NCBI GenBank assembly: GCA_036504445.1
Contig: DASXVE010000025.1
Location: 1 to 64,000, forward strand
Source: Candidatus Aquicultor sp.
GTDB lineage: Bacteria; Actinomycetota; Aquicultoria; Aquicultorales; Aquicultoraceae
Direction of reading: 5' to 3'
DNA: 64,000 bases
Positions 4,955-61,255 of this stretch are shown here, in pieces. Position 1 is the first letter of the stretch; each line of letters starts with the position of its first letter. The notes below the pieces were generated by a model, which was given only the letters and a program-made list of their open reading frames with translations, was not told the origin of the DNA and did no database searches. The translations under genes and the position numbers were made by a program.

Positions 4955-6328
4955 ATGGATAGCAAAACCATTTCACACTCAAATAATAAGAAACGGCAAC
5001 GATTCATACGAAAACTGCGAAAGAGTCTATCGACACTCCTCATTGTGGCGGGGATTATCATTATTGTATTCCCCCTCGCTACTGAGGCCTACGGTTATTT
5101 CAAGTCACTGCAGCTCGCACAAGCCTGGGAGCAGCAAGCAGGCGACCAGAGACGTATCGCCGATATGATCCGCCAGAAGCAAGATGCACTCATCGCAGCA
5201 GGCAAACTCCCGGAGGAAGACGCCGTATTCGGCACTCCGGTGTCCAACAAAAATCGAGGCACGGGTAAATTGAAACCGTTCCCGAAAACGAAGATAAAAA
5301 TACCGAAAATAAGTGTGGATCAAGTTATCATAGAAGGCAGCGGCCCCGAAATCTTGCAGTTCGGACCGGGCCACTACGCCGGCATGGTAAACCCGGGCGA
5401 GCGGGGCAATTGCGGTATAGCAGGCCACAGGGTCACCTACACCCACCCGTTTAACCGGCTCGATGAACTCTCTAAGGGCGACACCATAATTCTCGAAACC
5501 GTCGATTATATCTACGAGTACGAGGTTGAAAGCATGGAAGTCACCGATCCAAGCGATACCCATAACCTTCAGCCGACGCCCGACCCACGAATTACGCTAA
5601 CCACGTGTAACCCTAAATACAGTGCCAAAACCAGGCTGAATGTCATGGGTGTGTTGATCAACAGCACGGCACGGCGCCCGACTATCATCCGGGTAGTCAA
5701 AAACATCCTCCAGGAAAAGAAGCAGCCCAAGCGATTCAGCAACAAACCGAGAACGTACGCGCAACTCCTGAAGGATTACAAGAAACAGCGCCTGCAAGTC
5801 GAGAACAATCCACTCGATGCCTATGTATACGCTGATTTTGCCAGCACCTGTATTGAGCTGGATAAATATGCAGAGGCATATAAAGCTCTCAGGAGAGCAA
5901 CGCTCATTGAGCCGAATTCGGTCGATATACAGAAGCTGCAAGCGCGGTTCAGTGCGATAAAACGGAGCCTTGAAACAAACGTGGCTTTATCCGAGCAATC
6001 AATGATTAACGGCGTGCGAAACACTAACCCGGACTACTACTTTGACCTCGGCAACATGTACATCGCAACCGAAGAATACGATCGCGCGGCAACTGTCTTT
6101 AAACGTGGCGTTGACATGATGCCGTACATGTCCGACCCGTATGTATATGTAGCCGGTGCCTATGAGAAGATGGGCGTTGATAACCTGGCATTGAACTATT
6201 ACAACCAGGCGCTTCAATATGACCCAACATGCCCGGATGCGTTAAGCGGGATTAAACGGATAAGAAATAAGAAGCCTATGAATGCGTTCGAGTTAACCAA
6301 ACTGCACTACCGGCTGCAACCTCAATAA
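4955..6328 (+). CDS. Sortase (class E-like) with C-terminal TPR repeats
   Basis: A 457-residue membrane-anchored transpeptidase. One hydrophobic segment at about 27-45 is followed by a sortase domain at about 110-235. Catalytic residues are visible: His158 in GIAGHRVTYTHPF, Cys218 in TLTTCNPKYSAKTRL and Arg227. Sortases cut surface proteins at a short C-terminal signal and attach them to the cell wall. From about 275 to 450 there are TPR-type repeats (DAYVYADFASTCIELDKYAE; PDYYFDLGNMYIATEEYDRA), an unusual fusion that could hold substrates or partners. Its convergent neighbour is a cytochrome with a candidate sorting signal, a likely substrate. Confidence 0.88.
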   Translation: MDSKTISHSNNKKRQRFIRKLRKSLSTLLIVAGIIIIVFPLATEAYGYFKSLQLAQAWEQQAGDQRRIADMIRQKQDALIAAGKLPEEDAVFGTPVSNKNRGTGKLKPFPKTKIKIPKISVDQVIIEGSGPEILQFGPGHYAGMVNPGERGNCGIAGHRVTYTHPFNRLDELSKGDTIILETVDYIYEYEVESMEVTDPSDTHNLQPTPDPRITLTTCNPKYSAKTRLNVMGVLINSTARRPTIIRVVKNILQEKKQPKRFSNKPRTYAQLLKDYKKQRLQVENNPLDAYVYADFASTCIELDKYAEAYKALRRATLIEPNSVDIQKLQARFSAIKRSLETNVALSEQSMINGVRNTNPDYYFDLGNMYIATEEYDRAATVFKRGVDMMPYMSDPYVYVAGAYEKMGVDNLALNYYNQALQYDPTCPDALSGIKRIRNKKPMNAFELTKLHYRLQPQ

Positions 6329-6409
6329 AAAAATAGACCAATCTTGCGATGGTCCATTTACAATTTCGAAATATTTATTACTGCATTTTATCGCTGTATT
6401 CTTTACGTA

Positions 6410-7003
6410 TTATTCTTCGTCGCTTAACTGATTCCCCTTGTTCCTCATCGCCATACCCGAGCCGACCAATCCACCGCCGCCCAGTAAGTACCAGATTACC
6501 TCAATACCTGTTTTTGCCTGTTGTTTTGGCACGCTCGTGACGGGCGCAAGTGTTGCAGGTGGAAGCGTTGTCGTTGTGGTAGGCATCACCGTGGTTGTCG
6601 TGATTGCGGTTTTCTGAGCTTTTATATTGCCGCTGTTCGGATTCGAAGTCGTGGTTGTCGGTTTCGGCTTCTGGGTTGTCGTTGTCGTCGGCTGCTTGAT
6701 GGTACCTTTACTCATCGCGGTAAGATACTCATTAACGTCATTTGTGTCTTGATCGGTGAGCTGAGCGCCCCACATCTGCATCTTATTGACGATCTTGGAC
6801 CATTCTGCCTTGGTCTTCTTTTGGCCTTCCCAGTAAGTCTTACCGGTTTTGGGGTCTTTCTTTGCATCATGGCACTCGGTACAAGCTTTGTAGACGAGCT
6901 GTTTCGTGTCAACCGCGGACGCATTTTGTGCGATAAAAAGAGACGCGGTAAAGACGAGCACAAGAATCGATATCAACTTTTTGTTAGTCTTCCTGGCCGC
7001 CAT
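6410..7003 (-). CDS. Secreted monohaem c-type cytochrome with candidate sortase signal
   Basis: A 197-residue exported protein: signal peptide to about 30 (ending NASA), one haem site C41-T-E-C44-H45 and a small cytochrome domain to about 100 with Met75/Met77 as possible sixth ligand. Residues 105-155 are a Thr/Pro-rich linker typical of wall-spanning regions. The end has QAKTG (162-166), a hydrophobic stretch of about 19 residues, then RNKG: the layout of a sortase sorting signal, close to the LAxTG type used by class E sortases. Together with the convergent sortase next door this suggests a wall-anchored electron carrier. The short acidic tail NQLSDEE is atypical. Confidence 0.85.
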   Translation of the reverse strand: MAARKTNKKLISILVLVFTASLFIAQNASAVDTKQLVYKACTECHDAKKDPKTGKTYWEGQKKTKAEWSKIVNKMQMWGAQLTDQDTNDVNEYLTAMSKGTIKQPTTTTTQKPKPTTTTSNPNSGNIKAQKTAITTTTVMPTTTTTLPPATLAPVTSVPKQQAKTGIEVIWYLLGGGGLVGSGMAMRNKGNQLSDEE

Positions 7004-9572: not shown

Positions 9573-10436
9573 CTAATACACATAAACCAAAGAGCCCATA
9601 GGCATGTTGTTATAGATGTACTTGCAATCGACAATCGGCACGCGAACACAGCCGTGCGATGCCGGCTTCGTTGGAACGCTGGGATAGCCGTGAACGGCTA
9701 CGCCGCTGTAGAAGAAGCTCGTCCAGGTCATAATACCGTCATATTTCTTCGATCTGTATTGGTAACCCGGCTTGGAATACACGCGCGCCGTCACCGACGG
9801 CGTGGTGTGACCGTGCCTGCCGGTCGATACCGGAAATATCTTTGTAACTTTGCCGCCACGTACTATAAGCAGTACCTGGAGCGCTTTATTAACCTCGACA
9901 TGATCGCCTTTGTAGCGGGCTTTAATAATTTTCGGGTACGAGAGAGCGCGCAACGTGGATTTTCCCGCAGCGCCGTCCCTTGAAAGCCCGTTTACCTTCT
10001 GAAACGCTACAACCGCATAGCAGCTATGCATGTTATAGCGGCCATTAATCGCTCCCGGGTTATAACCGAGCTCGGTTAGACGCCGCTGCAAGCGTATCAC
10101 ATCGGCACCGCGTGAACCCATGCTGAGCCTATGGTTTGAGATAAACACCGGGGCGGGCTTTACCACCGGTTTTGGTGTTGGTTTGGGTTTTGGTTCGGGT
10201 TTCGGCTTGGGCGCCGGCGGCTTCGGTACCGGTATTGTTGTTGGTGTAGTTGTCGGTGTCGTTGACGGAGTTGCCGGCGCAAAGATCAACGTCGGCGTCT
10301 GCGAATCTTCTGCGAATGTTTTTGTTGGTATCGTATCGGCGGAAACCGGCATAGCCAAAGAGATGATGTATGCAACTAAGAAAAGTGCGGCAATAAGAAT
10401 GCGAGTGGTACGCGAGCTGTATTTCCGTGCGGTCAA
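9573..10436 (-). CDS. L,D-transpeptidase with peptidoglycan-binding domain
   Basis: A 287-residue secreted wall enzyme: signal peptide (about 1-33), Pro/Lys-rich linker with repeated PKP units, PG_binding_1 domain at about 105-165 (GADVIRLQRRLTELGYNPGA) and YkuD catalytic domain to the end. The catalytic motif HGYPSVPTKPASHGCVRV holds the active Cys. Such enzymes make 3-3 peptidoglycan cross-links or attach proteins to the wall. TTG 10436 is the start: a GGGGG site lies six bases before it and the signal peptide needs it. The leader upstream contains several stems. Confidence 0.9.
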   Translation of the reverse strand: MTARKYSSRTTRILIAALFLVAYIISLAMPVSADTIPTKTFAEDSQTPTLIFAPATPSTTPTTTPTTIPVPKPPAPKPKPEPKPKPTPKPVVKPAPVFISNHRLSMGSRGADVIRLQRRLTELGYNPGAINGRYNMHSCYAVVAFQKVNGLSRDGAAGKSTLRALSYPKIIKARYKGDHVEVNKALQVLLIVRGGKVTKIFPVSTGRHGHTTPSVTARVYSKPGYQYRSKKYDGIMTWTSFFYSGVAVHGYPSVPTKPASHGCVRVPIVDCKYIYNNMPMGSLVYVY

Positions 10437-38102: not shown

Positions 38103-39074
38103 CTACTCTTCCACGAAAACAGCGGAGCCGATTTTGACTTTGTCGAACAGCTGGATTACATCCTCATTGTAGAGGCGGATGCAGCCGTGCGAGGCCATCT
38201 TGCCGATGCTGCTCGGGCGGTTGGTGCCGTGAATATTGTAACCGCTGTAGTGCGGCCCGTCTTTGCGTTTTTGGTACAGCACTAGGCGCCGTGCGCCCCA
38301 ATCGCCGTCCGGACTGGTATAGAGCTTCTTGCCTACATAAAATACGCCTGCCGGTGTGGGTGTCGCCGGAGTGCCGATGGCAATCGGATACAGAATTGAT
38401 AACTTGCCGTTTTCAAACAGTGAGAGCGACATATCGCCTTTACTAACAAGGATATAGTTGAGCGGCTTTACTGTTCCACTCCGCACTAGCGCTGTCTTGG
38501 TGAAGGTTTTGCCCCATGCATTGCAGGCAATAACCTGGATATGCGAATACCCCTGTCGCAGCCACACATTTTTAAATCCGTAAACTCCATTTACCGGTGT
38601 CGTGCGGTAAGTGATCTTCCCATTTATAGCTAAATAGAGACTTTGCGTGCGATCATCGACATTGCCGTTTATTGTCAGCCGGCCAGGAATCGCCATGTTG
38701 TCGGTAACGTCCCATGACGGCGTAAGCGGCCGATAATCGTCGAGGTTAACATAGATGCTATTGCTCATGGCAACCATGACTCCACTCGCATCATATGCAA
38801 CCGCGGTGTATTCATGGCTATCATCGGGAGCAACGACGGTAAACGTCGTCTCGGCGCTTGCGTGATCCTGCAGCGCAGTTGCAACTACTTTACCGTCGCT
38901 CTTGAGCTGTATCTGGCTTACACCGTTTTGTTTAGCTACCGAAAAGTGGAGCCCGTTATCCTCGTAAGATGGTTGTTGCAGCGACAAAGTTATAAAGTTG
39001 CCGGCATTTGCTACGAGTGATGCTATCATGGCGAACGCCACAGTAAACAGTAATACTGTGATAATCCGCTTCAT
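38103..39074 (-). CDS. L,D-transpeptidase with N-terminal Ig-like domain
   Basis: A 323-residue secreted enzyme: signal peptide MKRIITVLLFTVAFAMIAS, a beta-sandwich region (about 30-190) and a YkuD domain to the end. The active motif HGTNRPSSIGKMASHGCIRL holds the catalytic Cys. It forms or edits 3-3 cross-links or anchors proteins to the wall; a second such gene lies at 9573. I start at 39074 because the signal peptide begins there; the frame is open 66 codons further but that part is unlike any leader. Confidence 0.88.
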   Translation of the reverse strand: MKRIITVLLFTVAFAMIASLVANAGNFITLSLQQPSYEDNGLHFSVAKQNGVSQIQLKSDGKVVATALQDHASAETTFTVVAPDDSHEYTAVAYDASGVMVAMSNSIYVNLDDYRPLTPSWDVTDNMAIPGRLTINGNVDDRTQSLYLAINGKITYRTTPVNGVYGFKNVWLRQGYSHIQVIACNAWGKTFTKTALVRSGTVKPLNYILVSKGDMSLSLFENGKLSILYPIAIGTPATPTPAGVFYVGKKLYTSPDGDWGARRLVLYQKRKDGPHYSGYNIHGTNRPSSIGKMASHGCIRLYNEDVIQLFDKVKIGSAVFVEE

Positions 39075-39292
39075 TCCTGTATTCTCTTGATAAACGTGCT
39101 CCTGGTGCATATTAATCACATCATTCATGCCAGGGTAACTCTTAGCAAGTATGCACCTCATTACTGCAGCTTGTGCTAGCCGCCTGCGGCTGTAAAGCGC
39201 CTGTTCAGCAGCTTGTGAGATTGTGATACTTGCACCTACATAGTAGCATACCCACCGTGGTATATGCAACAAAAGCGCTGGTTAGATGCTTA

Positions 39293-56242: not shown

Positions 56243-56848
56243 ATGGTTCCCTTGATAAGTTTCGAGAAGCCTTCACCGCCTTCGGACGACCGGAGGTGGA
56301 AACTTGTCGACAGAACGATGCGCCAATACGGTTATGCGCCGGACGCGGTTATCCAGGTGCTGCATACGGTTCAGGAAACGTTCGGCTTCCTTGACATTGA
56401 TGCGATGAATTACGTGGCCGCTTCGCTGCGCGTGCCGTTGAGCCAGGTGTACGGCGTAGCGACGTTTTACCACTTCTTCACGCTAAAGCCCCAGGGCGAA
56501 CACACCTGCGTGGTATGCACGGGGACGGCGTGCTACATCAAGGGTGCTCAGGATTTGCTCGACGCCGTTGAGGAGGTTACCGGGGCAAAACCCGGCGAGA
56601 CAAGCGTCGATGGCAAGGTATCGGTTCTAACCGCCAGGTGCCTTGGCGCGTGCGGGCTCGCAGCGGCGGCGGTTTACGACGGTGAAATCGCGGCAAAAGT
56701 TACCCCGGACGCCATCAAGAAACAGGTGCACGAGTGGACCGACATCGTCGAAGAGGCAGCCGGCAGCCCGCCGCAAGGTATCCCTACCACGCCTCCCGAA
56801 GGCCCCGCCCCGCAAAATCCGATCATTGAAGGGGTGACCGCCGAATGA
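56243..56848 (+). CDS. hoxE: Hox hydrogenase diaphorase subunit HoxE (NuoE-like)
   Basis: A 201-residue thioredoxin-like [2Fe-2S] protein. Core segments are MRQYGYAPDAVIQVLHTVQE, GVATFYHFF, CTGTACYIKGA and ARCLGACGLA, giving the four cluster Cys. The Pro-rich end (SPPQGIPTTPPEGPAPQNP) is a linker. It is the small electron-entry subunit of the NAD-linked hydrogenase. ATG 56243 is used; TTG 56252 has better spacing from a GAGAGG site and is possible. It overlaps hoxF (ATGA). Confidence 0.9.
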   Translation: MVPLISFEKPSPPSDDRRWKLVDRTMRQYGYAPDAVIQVLHTVQETFGFLDIDAMNYVAASLRVPLSQVYGVATFYHFFTLKPQGEHTCVVCTGTACYIKGAQDLLDAVEEVTGAKPGETSVDGKVSVLTARCLGACGLAAAAVYDGEIAAKVTPDAIKKQVHEWTDIVEEAAGSPPQGIPTTPPEGPAPQNPIIEGVTAE

Positions 56849-58566
56849 CGCACGATGAGCTTGCGGAAATCCGCAAAGCCGAACAGGAGCGCAAGCAGAA
56901 ATATAAGCACAAGATCAACGTCTGCATGGCGTCGGGTTGCCTGTCGCTTCGAAGCGACCTGGTCAAAGAGGCCATTACAAAGGAAGTGGATAAAGAATGC
57001 CTCGCAGACAGCGTGCTCGTGAGCAAAGTGGGCTGTGTGGGCCTCTGCTCTCAAGGGCCGATTGTCGTGCTCGAAACCAAAGGCGAGGTTCGCGAAGGCA
57101 TCACGCCTGAAGATGCCGAAGCGATAATTAAGAGCCTTGGTGCGGAGCACGATGGTGGTAACAGCAACGAGCTAGTTGACGGTGTCGTGCTCCGGTTGGA
57201 TAGTAAGTTTTTCACCCGCCAGAAAAAGATCGTCATGGAGCACTCGGGCTTGATCGACCCGGACCGTATCGAAGACTATATCGCCGTCGGCGGTTACGAG
57301 TCCGTGCTCGATGTGCTCACCGAAATGAGCCCGGCGGAAGTTATCGACCAGGTGACCCGGAGCGGTCTGCGCGGCCGGGGCGGTGCCGGGTACCCGACCG
57401 GTTTGAAGTGGAGCACCGTCGCCAAGGCGTTTAGCAGTAGCGGCGAGAAGTTCATTATCTGCAATGCCGACGAGGGCGACCCCGGCGCGTACATGGACCG
57501 CAGCATTCTGGAGAGCAATCCGCACCAGGTCATCGAGGGCATGATAATCGGTGCGTTTGCGGTCGGCGCATCCAAGGGATTTGTTTACGTGCGGGCGGAG
57601 TATCCGCTTGCGATAGAGCGCTTGAAAATCGCGCTCAAACAGGCCGAGAAATTCGGCTTTCTCGGGCACAACATCGGCGGCACCACGTTTAGCTTCACCG
57701 TCGAGCTGCGCTACGGCGCCGGGGCGTTCGTCACCGGTGAGGAAACGGCGCTTATAGCGTCGGTCGGAGGGCAGCGAGGCCTTCCGCAGCAGCGCCCGCC
57801 CTACCCCGCCGAGCGCGGCCTGTTTGGTCGCCCGACGCTGATCAATAACGTCGAAACCCTGGCCAACATCCCGCCGATCATCCGAAACGGCGGCGATTGG
57901 TTTGCGAAGATCGGTACCGAGAAAAGCAAAGGAACCAAAGTGTTTTCCTTGGTAGGCAAGATCAATAATGTGGGTCTCGTCGAGGTGCCGCTCGGTATGC
58001 CGCTTCGCGAGGTCATCTATGACCTCGGCGGCGGCATCCCGGACGGGCGCACATTTAAGGCGGTACAAACCGGTGGGCCATCCGGCGGCTGCATCCCGGC
58101 AGAGCACCTGGATTTACCGGTCGACTTTGAATCGCTGCAGCAGGCCGGCTCGATCATGGGCTCGGGCGGCATGATCGTCATGGATGATGCCTCATGTATG
58201 GTTGACGTGGCGAAATACTTTATGGGTTTCTGTAAGTCGGAGTCGTGCGGCAAGTGCATCCCCTGCCGGGTGGGAACCGTGCAGATGCACGCCATCTTAG
58301 AGCGAATCACTGATGGCACGGCGACCATGGAGGATCTCGGTTTATTAGAGAACCTTTGCGGCCTGGCTAAGAACGCGAGCATTTGCGGCCTCGGCCAGTC
58401 GGCACCGAACCCGGTACTCTCCACGCTGCGATATTTCCGCGATGAGTACCGGGCGCACATTGAGGAGAGGCGCTGCCCGGCCGGCGTGTGCAAGTTTAAA
58501 AACGCCGGTAAAGATGTATACGAAGAAGACCTGGAGGTGCGAGATGAGACGGGAACCTCGAGTTAA
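56845..58566 (+). CDS. hoxF: Hox hydrogenase diaphorase subunit HoxF (NuoF-like)
   Basis: A 573-residue NAD- and FMN-binding subunit. An N-terminal thioredoxin-like [2Fe-2S] domain (CMASGCLS, CVGLCSQGP) is followed by the NuoF core: NADH site GRGGAGYPTGLKW, FMN-binding GAYMDRSILESNPHQV and a 4Fe-4S motif ESCGKCIPCRVGT. It transfers electrons between NAD(H) and the hydrogenase clusters. The start overlaps hoxE and the end overlaps hoxU. Confidence 0.95.
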   Translation: MTHDELAEIRKAEQERKQKYKHKINVCMASGCLSLRSDLVKEAITKEVDKECLADSVLVSKVGCVGLCSQGPIVVLETKGEVREGITPEDAEAIIKSLGAEHDGGNSNELVDGVVLRLDSKFFTRQKKIVMEHSGLIDPDRIEDYIAVGGYESVLDVLTEMSPAEVIDQVTRSGLRGRGGAGYPTGLKWSTVAKAFSSSGEKFIICNADEGDPGAYMDRSILESNPHQVIEGMIIGAFAVGASKGFVYVRAEYPLAIERLKIALKQAEKFGFLGHNIGGTTFSFTVELRYGAGAFVTGEETALIASVGGQRGLPQQRPPYPAERGLFGRPTLINNVETLANIPPIIRNGGDWFAKIGTEKSKGTKVFSLVGKINNVGLVEVPLGMPLREVIYDLGGGIPDGRTFKAVQTGGPSGGCIPAEHLDLPVDFESLQQAGSIMGSGGMIVMDDASCMVDVAKYFMGFCKSESCGKCIPCRVGTVQMHAILERITDGTATMEDLGLLENLCGLAKNASICGLGQSAPNPVLSTLRYFRDEYRAHIEERRCPAGVCKFKNAGKDVYEEDLEVRDETGTSS

Positions 58567-59260
58567 AACGCTTAGGATAGATGATTGCGATTGCGCCGGG
58601 CGCGAGGACCAGACGGTTCTTGACGTTGCGCGCGAGAACAACATCCGCATACCCACGCTGTGTCAGATCAACGGTCTCACCAACGTGGGGTCATGCCGTA
58701 TGTGCCTCGTCGAGGTAAAAGGCGTGCCGAAGCTGCTCACCGCATGCACCACCATGGTCTGGGAGGGTATGAAGGTTGTGACGAACTCGGAGCGCCTACA
58801 TGAATATCGCAAGATGATTCTCGAGCTCTTCTTTGCCGAGCGAAACCACATCTGCGCGATCTGCGTTGCCAACAGAAGCTGCGAGCTACAAGCGCTGGCG
58901 TTAGAGCTCGGTGTGGACCACATCCGCTACCCCTACCTCTACCAGGCCCTTGAGATTGACTCGACACACGATAAATTCGTGCTCGACCACAACCGCTGCA
59001 TCCTGTGCACCCGCTGCATACGGGCATGCTCGGAGATCGAAGGCGCCAATACGCTGGGCATGATGCGCCGTGGCGTCAACGACAAGGTCATCACCGACCT
59101 CAACCAGCCGTGGGGTGAGTCGCGAACCTGCACGAGCTGCGGCAAGTGCGTAAACGTCTGCCCGGTCGGAGCCATTTATGAAAAGGGCTTATCGCGCACC
59201 GAGTCGCGAAGAGAGCACACCTTCCTGCCTTACTTAACAATCATGCGGGGTGAGCGCTAA
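58544..59260 (+). CDS. hoxU: Hox hydrogenase diaphorase subunit HoxU (NuoG-like)
   Basis: A 238-residue iron-sulphur subunit. The N-terminal [2Fe-2S] domain has CQINGLTNVGSCRMC; a His-Cys3 site HICAICVANRSCELQ and two 4Fe-4S motifs CILCTRCIRAC and CTSCGKCVNVCPVG follow. It wires HoxF to HoxY. ATG 58544 follows GGAGGT and lies in the end of hoxF; the frame opens earlier but within hoxF. Confidence 0.94.
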   Translation: MRREPRVKTLRIDDCDCAGREDQTVLDVARENNIRIPTLCQINGLTNVGSCRMCLVEVKGVPKLLTACTTMVWEGMKVVTNSERLHEYRKMILELFFAERNHICAICVANRSCELQALALELGVDHIRYPYLYQALEIDSTHDKFVLDHNRCILCTRCIRACSEIEGANTLGMMRRGVNDKVITDLNQPWGESRTCTSCGKCVNVCPVGAIYEKGLSRTESRREHTFLPYLTIMRGER

Positions 59261-59793
59261 TGAGAGAGAGAAATAAAGCGCGGGTGGCGACGGTATGGCT
59301 CGACGGGTGCTCGGGATGTCACATGTCGATTTTCGATATGGACGATCGGCTTCTCGAGCTCAAAGACCGGATCGAGCTGGTATACAGCCCGCTGGTGGAT
59401 GCCAAAGATTATCCTAAAGACGTCGACGTCGCCCTGGTCGAGGGGTGTATCGGCAATGAAGAGCAGCGCAAATTCGCCCACACCATGCGCGCGAGCACCA
59501 AGACCTTTGTATCACTCGGCGACTGTGCGGTGACGAGCAACATCGTCGCCTACCGCAACCCGTTCAAGATGCACGACGTGATACACCGCGCGTTCATCGA
59601 AAATTCGGAGGGCGAGATCGTGCTGCCGCAAGAGGACGTCCCTCCGCTTCTCCCCTTCGCGGTGCCGATTCACGAGATTATCGACGTCGATGTATACATT
59701 CCCGGGTGCCCGCCCTCGGCCGATTTGATTCACTACACCTTGGTCGAACTGCTGGAAGGACGTCATCCGGATATCAAGAATCGCTTCGGATAG
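59260..59793 (+). CDS. hoxY: Hox [NiFe] hydrogenase small subunit
   Basis: A 177-residue small subunit. Cluster ligands are seen in WLDGCSGCHMSIFD, EGCIGNEE, SLGDCAVTSN and IPGCPPSAD, which bind the proximal 4Fe-4S cluster. It overlaps hoxU by one base (TAATG). It connects the active site in HoxH to the HoxU clusters in the cytoplasm. Confidence 0.95.
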   Translation: MRERNKARVATVWLDGCSGCHMSIFDMDDRLLELKDRIELVYSPLVDAKDYPKDVDVALVEGCIGNEEQRKFAHTMRASTKTFVSLGDCAVTSNIVAYRNPFKMHDVIHRAFIENSEGEIVLPQEDVPPLLPFAVPIHEIIDVDVYIPGCPPSADLIHYTLVELLEGRHPDIKNRFG

Positions 59794-59803
59794 GAGGCGC
59801 GAT

Positions 59804-61255
59804 ATGGCAAAAAAGGCAGAAAGCGCGCGTAAAAATATCGAAATAGCTCCGATAACCCGTATCGAAGGGCATGCCAAGATAACCGTTCACCTCAATGACG
59901 ACGGACAGGTCGAGGACGCCCGCCTTCACCTCACCCAATTTCGCGGGTTTGAGAAGTTCTGTGATGGGCGCCCCTTCTACGAGATGCCTTTTATCGTGCA
60001 GCGCATCTGTGGGATTTGCCCGGTAAGCCATGCTATAGCCTCATCCAAGGCGTGCGATCAGATCTTATCCGTGCGGGTGCCGAACGCGGGAATGCGGCTG
60101 AGAAAACTCGCCAATCTCGCCCAGGTTATCCAGTCGCACGCGCTGAGCCTGTTCTATCTCTCCTCCCCCGACATTCTCTTGGGGATGGACGCCGATCCGG
60201 CAAAGCGTAACCTCTACGGCGTTTTAGAGGCCAACCGTCAGCTCGCGTACGACGGGGTTTACCTGCGCAAATTCGGTCAATCGGTTATCGCCCATCTGGC
60301 AAGCACCGGCAAGCGCGTCCACCCTGGCTGGATCGTGCCCGGCGGCGTTGCCACTCCCCTCTCCGCCGAAGCCCGCGAGCAGATGCAGGCAATGATTCCG
60401 GGGGCTCTGGCGGCGGCACAGCGCTCGCTTATCTGGTTCAAGCAAGCGATGGAAAACTTCCGCGAGGAGATCCGCGCCTTTGCGTGCTTCCCCTCCCTGT
60501 TCATGGGGATAGTAGGTCCGGATGGCGAGCTCGAGTACAGCGACGGGCTCGTTCGAATTGTCGATTCTTCCGGCGCCACCATAGCCGATGAGCTCGATCC
60601 TTCGAGCTACCAGGACTTTATCCGCGAGATAGCGGTGCCCTGGACCTACATGAAATTCCCTTCGTATAAGCACCTACCGCCCCCGGAAAACTCGCTGCGT
60701 GTGGGGCCGCTCGCCCGCCTGAATATTATTGGTAAGGTGGATATGCCGCATGCAGCCCAGGAGTGGGCCGAGTTTCGAACCCTTGAGCGAGGTGTGGTCT
60801 TGAGCTCGTTTTATTACCACTATGCCCGGCTTATTGAGGTTCTTTACTCGATTGAGAAGATCGAAGCGATGTTAAAAGATCCGGAAATTCTGGGCAGACG
60901 TGCCCGGGCAAAAGCCGAGCCCAACTGCTCCGAGGGTATCGGCGTGGCCGAAGCGCCGCGCGGGATGCTCATCCACCATTACAAAATCAACGACGACGGC
61001 CTAATCACCTGGGCGAACCTCGTCATTGCGACCGGTTTCAATAACTACGCGATGAACCGCGGCGTGCTGCAGGTAGCCAAACATTACATCACCGGCCCCG
61101 AAATACCCGAAGGTGTGCTCAATAGGCTGGAGGCGGTCGTCCGCGCGTTCGACCCGTGCCTGAGCTGCGCAAGCCACGCCGTCGGCCAGATGGCGATGCG
61201 GGTGCAGCTCGTCGGCCCGGATGGAGCAGTGTTGGACGAGGTTATTCGGGGTTAA
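59804..61255 (+). CDS. hoxH: Hox [NiFe] hydrogenase large subunit
   Basis: A 483-residue catalytic subunit of a group 3d-type, NAD-coupled hydrogenase. L1 motif RICGICPVSHA and L2 motif DPCLSCASHAVGQM hold the four Ni/Fe Cys. The 20-odd residues after the last His form the tail removed by a maturation protease. H2 oxidation or evolution is coupled to NAD(H). No hyp or hoxW maturation genes lie within the window. Its stop is two bases from the convergent recQ stop. Confidence 0.96.
   Translation: MAKKAESARKNIEIAPITRIEGHAKITVHLNDDGQVEDARLHLTQFRGFEKFCDGRPFYEMPFIVQRICGICPVSHAIASSKACDQILSVRVPNAGMRLRKLANLAQVIQSHALSLFYLSSPDILLGMDADPAKRNLYGVLEANRQLAYDGVYLRKFGQSVIAHLASTGKRVHPGWIVPGGVATPLSAEAREQMQAMIPGALAAAQRSLIWFKQAMENFREEIRAFACFPSLFMGIVGPDGELEYSDGLVRIVDSSGATIADELDPSSYQDFIREIAVPWTYMKFPSYKHLPPPENSLRVGPLARLNIIGKVDMPHAAQEWAEFRTLERGVVLSSFYYHYARLIEVLYSIEKIEAMLKDPEILGRRARAKAEPNCSEGIGVAEAPRGMLIHHYKINDDGLITWANLVIATGFNNYAMNRGVLQVAKHYITGPEIPEGVLNRLEAVVRAFDPCLSCASHAVGQMAMRVQLVGPDGAVLDEVIRG

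Follow-up and report, generated by a model that had tools for sequence, protein, structure and literature searches.

A TPR-fused sortase and a c-type cytochrome with a QAxTG tail as a probable dedicated sortase–substrate pair in Candidatus Aquicultor

The window, a 64,000-nucleotide stretch of a contig from Candidatus Aquicultor, a member of the Aquicultor family within the Actinomycetota, carries near its start two convergent genes whose stop codons lie 81 bp apart: one encodes a sortase fused to a TPR domain (sortase-TPR), and the other a monohaem c-type cytochrome precursor with a sorting-like tail. The gap between them holds an inverted repeat with A/T runs (6327–6361) that looks like a shared two-way terminator. 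Elsewhere in the window, an apparent NiFe-hydrogenase operon (56845–61255) is recognisable from the open reading frames alone, with small and large subunit-like frames and iron-sulphur partners, and likely L,D-transpeptidases are encoded at 9573–10436, where Pfam YkuD confirms the assignment, and at 38103–39272, from an SHGCIRL motif only. The sortase-TPR gene comprises the following features:

4955..6328, plus strand: sortase-TPR fusion, 457 residues (Pfam Sortase, E 1e-30, and TPR models; orthologues at 35–55% identity)
5030..5089, plus strand: N-terminal membrane helix after a basic stretch (read from sequence; helical in the AlphaFold2 model; topology predicted)
5294..5653, plus strand: sortase catalytic domain, residues 114–233 (Pfam Sortase)
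5375..5377, plus strand: Tyr141, equivalent to SrtE1 Tyr229, proposed P3-Ala recognition residue (invariant in TPR sortases; PMC5148588)
5426..5428, plus strand: catalytic His158 (invariant in orthologues; aligns with SrtE1 His251)
5606..5608, plus strand: catalytic Cys218 (invariant in orthologues; aligns with SrtE1 Cys320)
5633..5635, plus strand: catalytic Arg227 (invariant in orthologues; aligns with SrtE1 Arg329)
5639..5641, plus strand: Asn229, equivalent to SrtE1 Ile331 in the S4 pocket (Asn/Asp in all TPR sortases covering the site)
5762..6274, plus strand: TPR domain, residues about 270–440 (Pfam TPR; helical repeats in the model)

The initial annotation had described a sortase with His158, Cys218, Arg227 and a TPR tail, and both parts of this description are borne out by the sequence, by Pfam, and by the invariance of the three catalytic residues among 11 aligned orthologues. 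Several Pfam TPR models match at about residues 285–431, and the helical repeats are mostly predicted with pLDDT 82–94; the AlphaFold2 models are good for the TPR part, mixed for the sortase domain, and poor for the cytochrome. A type II topology is expected, which would place the sortase and TPR domains outside if the usual topology holds. The extreme C-terminus (6275–6325) carries a YxL[RQ]P[QR] motif that is conserved in TPR sortases of the Aquicultor family and missing in other families. The proposal that the enzyme is a class E sortase with an LAxTG-like signal stands in part. The NCBIfam class E model NF033747 is the top-scoring sortase class model, although its 116.8 bits fall below the cut-off of 160, and the His/Cys/Arg-bearing sortase domain and an invariant β3/β4-loop tyrosine (Tyr141) are present; the client signal shares Ala at P3 with LAxTG but has Gln at P4. 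On these sequence traits sortase-TPR appears class-E-like, but we do not assign it to class E, since it scores under the curated cut-off and the client signal is not LAxTG.

The features of the cytochrome gene, on the opposite strand, are:

6410..7003, minus strand: monohaem c-type cytochrome precursor with a sorting-like tail, 197 residues (sequence, Pfam, alignment)
6914..7003, minus strand: N-terminal signal peptide with basic N-terminus, hydrophobic core and ASA end (sequence; same layout in orthologues)
6713..6913, minus strand: cytochrome domain, residues 31–97 (Cytochrome_CBB3 at residues 33–94)
6869..6883, minus strand: haem attachment motif CTECH, residues 41–45 (C41, C44 and H45 aligned as invariant; spacing altered in genome G002)
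6779..6781, minus strand: Met75, likely axial ligand (from its spacing to W78-G79-L82; nearly invariant)
6521..6712, minus strand: Thr/Pro-rich linker, residues 98–161 (26% mean pairwise identity; variable length)
6506..6520, minus strand: predicted QAKTG sorting motif, residues 162–166 (Q, A, T and G invariant; the sole such tail in the genome)
6446..6499, minus strand: C-terminal hydrophobic helix (alignment; helical in a low-confidence model)
6434..6445, minus strand: basic stop-transfer RNKG (R187 invariant in the alignment)

All elements of the convergent cytochrome named at the outset (CTECH, Thr-rich linker, QAKTG, helix, and RNKG) can thus be read in the sequence, and the 197-residue frame matches Cytochrome_CBB3 over the curated cut-off (E 1e-6). 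Like monohaem class I c-type cytochromes, the protein has a CXXCH motif close to its N-terminus, and Met75 is by its spacing a likely axial ligand; unlike them, it is connected through a long stretch of Thr-rich linker to a tail of the sortase type. Its fold was modelled poorly (pLDDT 57), and a PDB search with the whole protein returned no match. The layout of a sorting signal is complete, with signal peptide, pentapeptide, hydrophobic helix and basic end supported by sequence and alignment. Pfam Gram_pos_anchor gave no match over cut-off in the source genome, the cytochrome tail included; this search is insensitive here, because it also missed an LPRTG protein. In the G002 orthologue (L035:7694-8338), CSDTQSGCH (CX6CH) replaces CXXCH while the tail and the sortase are kept, which could mean that the haem motif is unusual, that assembly varies, or that haem has been lost. 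In three genomes of other families (L037:7786-8385, L189:3846-4268, L055:867-1430), Glu takes the place of the likely axial Met, a change that would alter haem ligation and potential. Because of the CX6CH orthologue and these three without the likely axial Met, redox properties may differ, or the haem may be dispensable, in some lineages.

The tag within the tail is conserved. Fifteen cytochromes have a complete C-terminus, 13 of them aligned and two (G033, G034) read directly. Among the 13, Q, A, T and G of the motif and Glu168, two residues after the Gly, are 100% identical, with identities of 26% in the linker, 22% at the QAxTG x position, and 57% in the helix; the two remaining tails, QAETGIE and QADTGVE, have the same motif. 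Because Q, A, T, G and Glu168 are invariant while the linker and the x position diverge, the QAKTG tail appears not to be a chance look-alike. Loss of QAxTG with retention of the helix was seen in no orthologue. The short cytochromes of G012, G013 and G018 lack the tail and were rejected.

The two genes occur together almost without exception. Among the 36 genomes of the source genome's class, 14 have both (G000–G006, G008–G011, G015, G033, G034), 20 have neither, and two yielded only one (Fisher's test for co-occurrence, 6e-8, on related and hence non-independent genomes). Contig ends feature in both single finds: in G030 the cytochrome lies at a contig end, and a different contig end holds the beginning of a TPR-type sortase that is almost identical to the one in G015; in G021 the sortase runs off the contig end and the cytochrome was not found. 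Within the paired set, the G010 sortase is broken by a masked stretch and the G034 sortase is cut at the contig start. G007, a member of the same family with 97% completeness, has neither gene. A fifteenth paired genome, G038, is the only one among those examined that belongs to another class; at locus L039 it too carries the two genes in convergent order. Across 396 genomes sampled from the phylum, none outside this set has a full-length TPR sortase or a QAxTG tail. In all 15 genomes the two genes share a contig, adjacent and convergent in 13, convergent with a response regulator, a histidine kinase and an unknown protein between them in G005, and adjacent but co-directional in G011. The pairing is strict. 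In most paired genomes the genes are convergent and form no operon, which counts against a dedicated pair. The surroundings of the pair differ in other families. Within about 5 kb of the pair, genomes G003 and G010 of genus g4 encode a heptahaem cytochrome, and G003 also encodes a NapC/NirT-type protein; neither is found in this part of the window.

Searches of the source genome, in line with a comparison of sorting tails and sortases that the initial annotation had proposed as a check, gave one QAxTG tail and six sortases, one of them with a TPR domain. A tail profile search likewise returned a single match there. Every genome in which the pair is intact gave one strong match and no more, genomes without the TPR sortase gave none, and each paired genome has a single TPR sortase; weak matches in G228 (an LPFTG protein) and G254 (TPGTG) represent different sorting signals and were set aside. 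The other five sortases of the source genome are open frames of 206–289 residues without TPR repeats. An LPRTG protein is encoded by the gene next to one of them, and another shares a polysaccharide-type locus with an LPFTG protein. The LPxTG-type proteins found thus adjoin TPR-less sortases and are therefore no obvious clients of sortase-TPR; this outcome and the retention of QAxTG in all orthologues with the helix both favour the reading of the initial annotation. Large proteins at L204:1148-3001 (G000:C25 near 193662) and L183:4908-8999 (G009:C15) end in GANTN or GLNTN followed by a helix and a basic end; that of G009 adjoins a sortase of a different clade, also represented in G000:C10, which suggests a second non-canonical sorting signal.

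Comparison with SrtE1 from Streptomyces coelicolor (PDB 5CUW) relates the tag to the enzyme. Sortase-TPR resembles SrtE1 in its catalytic residues, in the β3/β4-loop tyrosine, and in a client with Ala at P3 (PMC5148588), but adds the TPR domain, has shorter loops in the alignment, and is paired with a predicted QAxTG rather than an LAxTG signal. In SrtE1, Tyr229 is proposed to recognise the P3 Ala, and the pocket for the P4 Leu, derived from a model rather than from mutants, is lined by Ile331, Val296, Val298 and Leu299 (PMC5148588). Alignment places Tyr141 and Asn229 of sortase-TPR at the positions of Tyr229 and Ile331, respectively, so that the S4 pocket Ile is exchanged for Asn/Asp. Wherever the sequence of a TPR sortase covers these sites, Tyr occupies the first position and Asn or Asp the second, and Asn/Asp at the second is absent from every other sortase checked. 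Sortases near LPRTG, LPVTG, LPPTG, LPYTG, LPFTG, FPITG and YPFTG tails have Met/Leu/Val at the Tyr229 site and Val/Ile/Leu at the Ile331 site. Non-cytochrome proteins of G013 (L164:4992-5666) and G028 (L159:4644-5120) end in LAYTG and TAYTG tails, respectively, and adjoin TPR-less sortases with the P3-Ala tyrosine and with Val or Ile at the Ile331 site. In all cases examined, therefore, Tyr tracks Ala at P3 and Asn/Asp tracks Gln at P4. The tree unites the TPR sortases in a single clade (support 99/94). The TAYTG enzyme branches next to it with weak support and the LAYTG enzyme in another part of the tree; because of this grouping, the number of independent co-variation events is small. The co-variation, seen in few lineages and with a P4 pocket taken from a published model, supports but does not prove a tie between sortase-TPR and QAxTG.

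The pair itself thus rests on its observed parts, the strict pairing, the single tail per sortase, and the co-variation of pocket and tag. With a probability of about 0.82, we take sortase-TPR and the cytochrome to be a dedicated sortase–substrate pair in which the cytochrome is covalently fixed to the wall, most likely as an electron relay across it; pairing across genomes, tail conservation and pocket co-variation support the anchoring originally proposed, with attachment to the wall as its predicted outcome. The signal peptide would export the cytochrome, the haem would be attached outside (cytochrome c assembly genes are present in the genome), and the C-terminal helix would keep the protein in the membrane. 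Membrane-anchored sortase-TPR would then bind QAxTG, Tyr141 accommodating the P3 Ala and Asn/Asp229 with its surroundings the P4 Gln, and Cys218 would cut between Thr and Gly and join the Thr to a cell-wall amine. The product would be a class I-type cytochrome bound covalently to the wall through a flexible, Thr-rich tether of ~60 residues, on which the haem domain could move within the wall and relay electrons between membrane and surface partners. The TPR domain may dock the cytochrome or another wall protein; that it selects the cytochrome, as the initial annotation suggested, is tentative. A more specific version, in which monoderm bacteria have a wall-spanning electron relay with a private sortase and its own QAxTG tag, and the TPR domain docks the cytochrome, perhaps in its haem-loaded form only, before it is fixed, is possible but tentative.

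By sequence, one C-terminal helix followed by basic residues is also what makes an ordinary tail anchor, and the helix might serve as a mere membrane anchor, with QAxTG left uncut and its likeness to a sorting signal due to descent or chance. A plain anchor, however, is not expected to preserve Q, A, T, G and E without any change as the rest of the tail drifts, and the tail tracks one sortase subtype across families, which makes such an anchor highly improbable. Some sortases polymerise pilins, a precedent that favours the idea that sortase-TPR links the cytochrome not to the wall but to another protein, or to itself in a polymer like a pilus; the extra TPR domain could hold a protein acceptor. 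Against this, the 13 aligned cytochromes have no invariant lysine, comparison of neighbourhoods across families revealed no third protein conserved beside the pair, and the enzyme is nearer to class E than to class C, so that we regard such a linkage as improbable.

The cytochrome could instead be anchored by one of the five other sortases, with the neighbouring sortase-TPR serving other clients. Cross-talk of this kind is conceivable because, in vitro, SrtE1 cuts signals with Ala as well as signals with Pro (PMC5148588). However, the five lack the combination of Tyr and Asn/Asp, genomes that have sortases but not the TPR type also lack the tail, and the searches revealed no further QAxTG protein for the TPR-type sortase, leaving this as the least probable explanation of those weighed. 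Fixation of the cytochrome by sortase-TPR itself remains the preferred reading.

The sorting signal of the SrtB–IsdC pair is, like QAxTG, of a non-LPxTG type. SrtB–IsdC of Staphylococcus aureus also resembles the present pair in that a dedicated sortase is encoded with the haem-binding client that it anchors, but SrtB belongs to a different sortase class, and IsdC holds haem via a NEAT domain and relays it for uptake (PMC12670364). Because the haem here is c-type and the fold that of a cytochrome, electron transfer is the likelier role here. The suggestion that haem proteins are rarely described as sortase substrates needs qualifying, since Isd proteins from S. aureus are familiar examples (PMC12670364); a c-type cytochrome substrate was not found described. 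Literature searches on QAXTG, on sortase with c-type cytochrome, on Aquicultor with cytochrome, and on sortase with TPR found nothing relevant, which is not proof of absence. Relative to dedicated pairs such as SrtB–IsdC, the differences are the c-type cytochrome client, the QAxTG tag, and the TPR fusion. The pair offers a sharp case of co-evolution between sortase pocket and tag (P4 Gln with Asn/Asp, P3 Ala with Tyr), which could aid the design of orthogonal sortases. If true, a dedicated sortase that fixes a c-type cytochrome would be, for this little-studied lineage of subsurface bacteria, a simple answer to how electrons pass through a thick monoderm wall.
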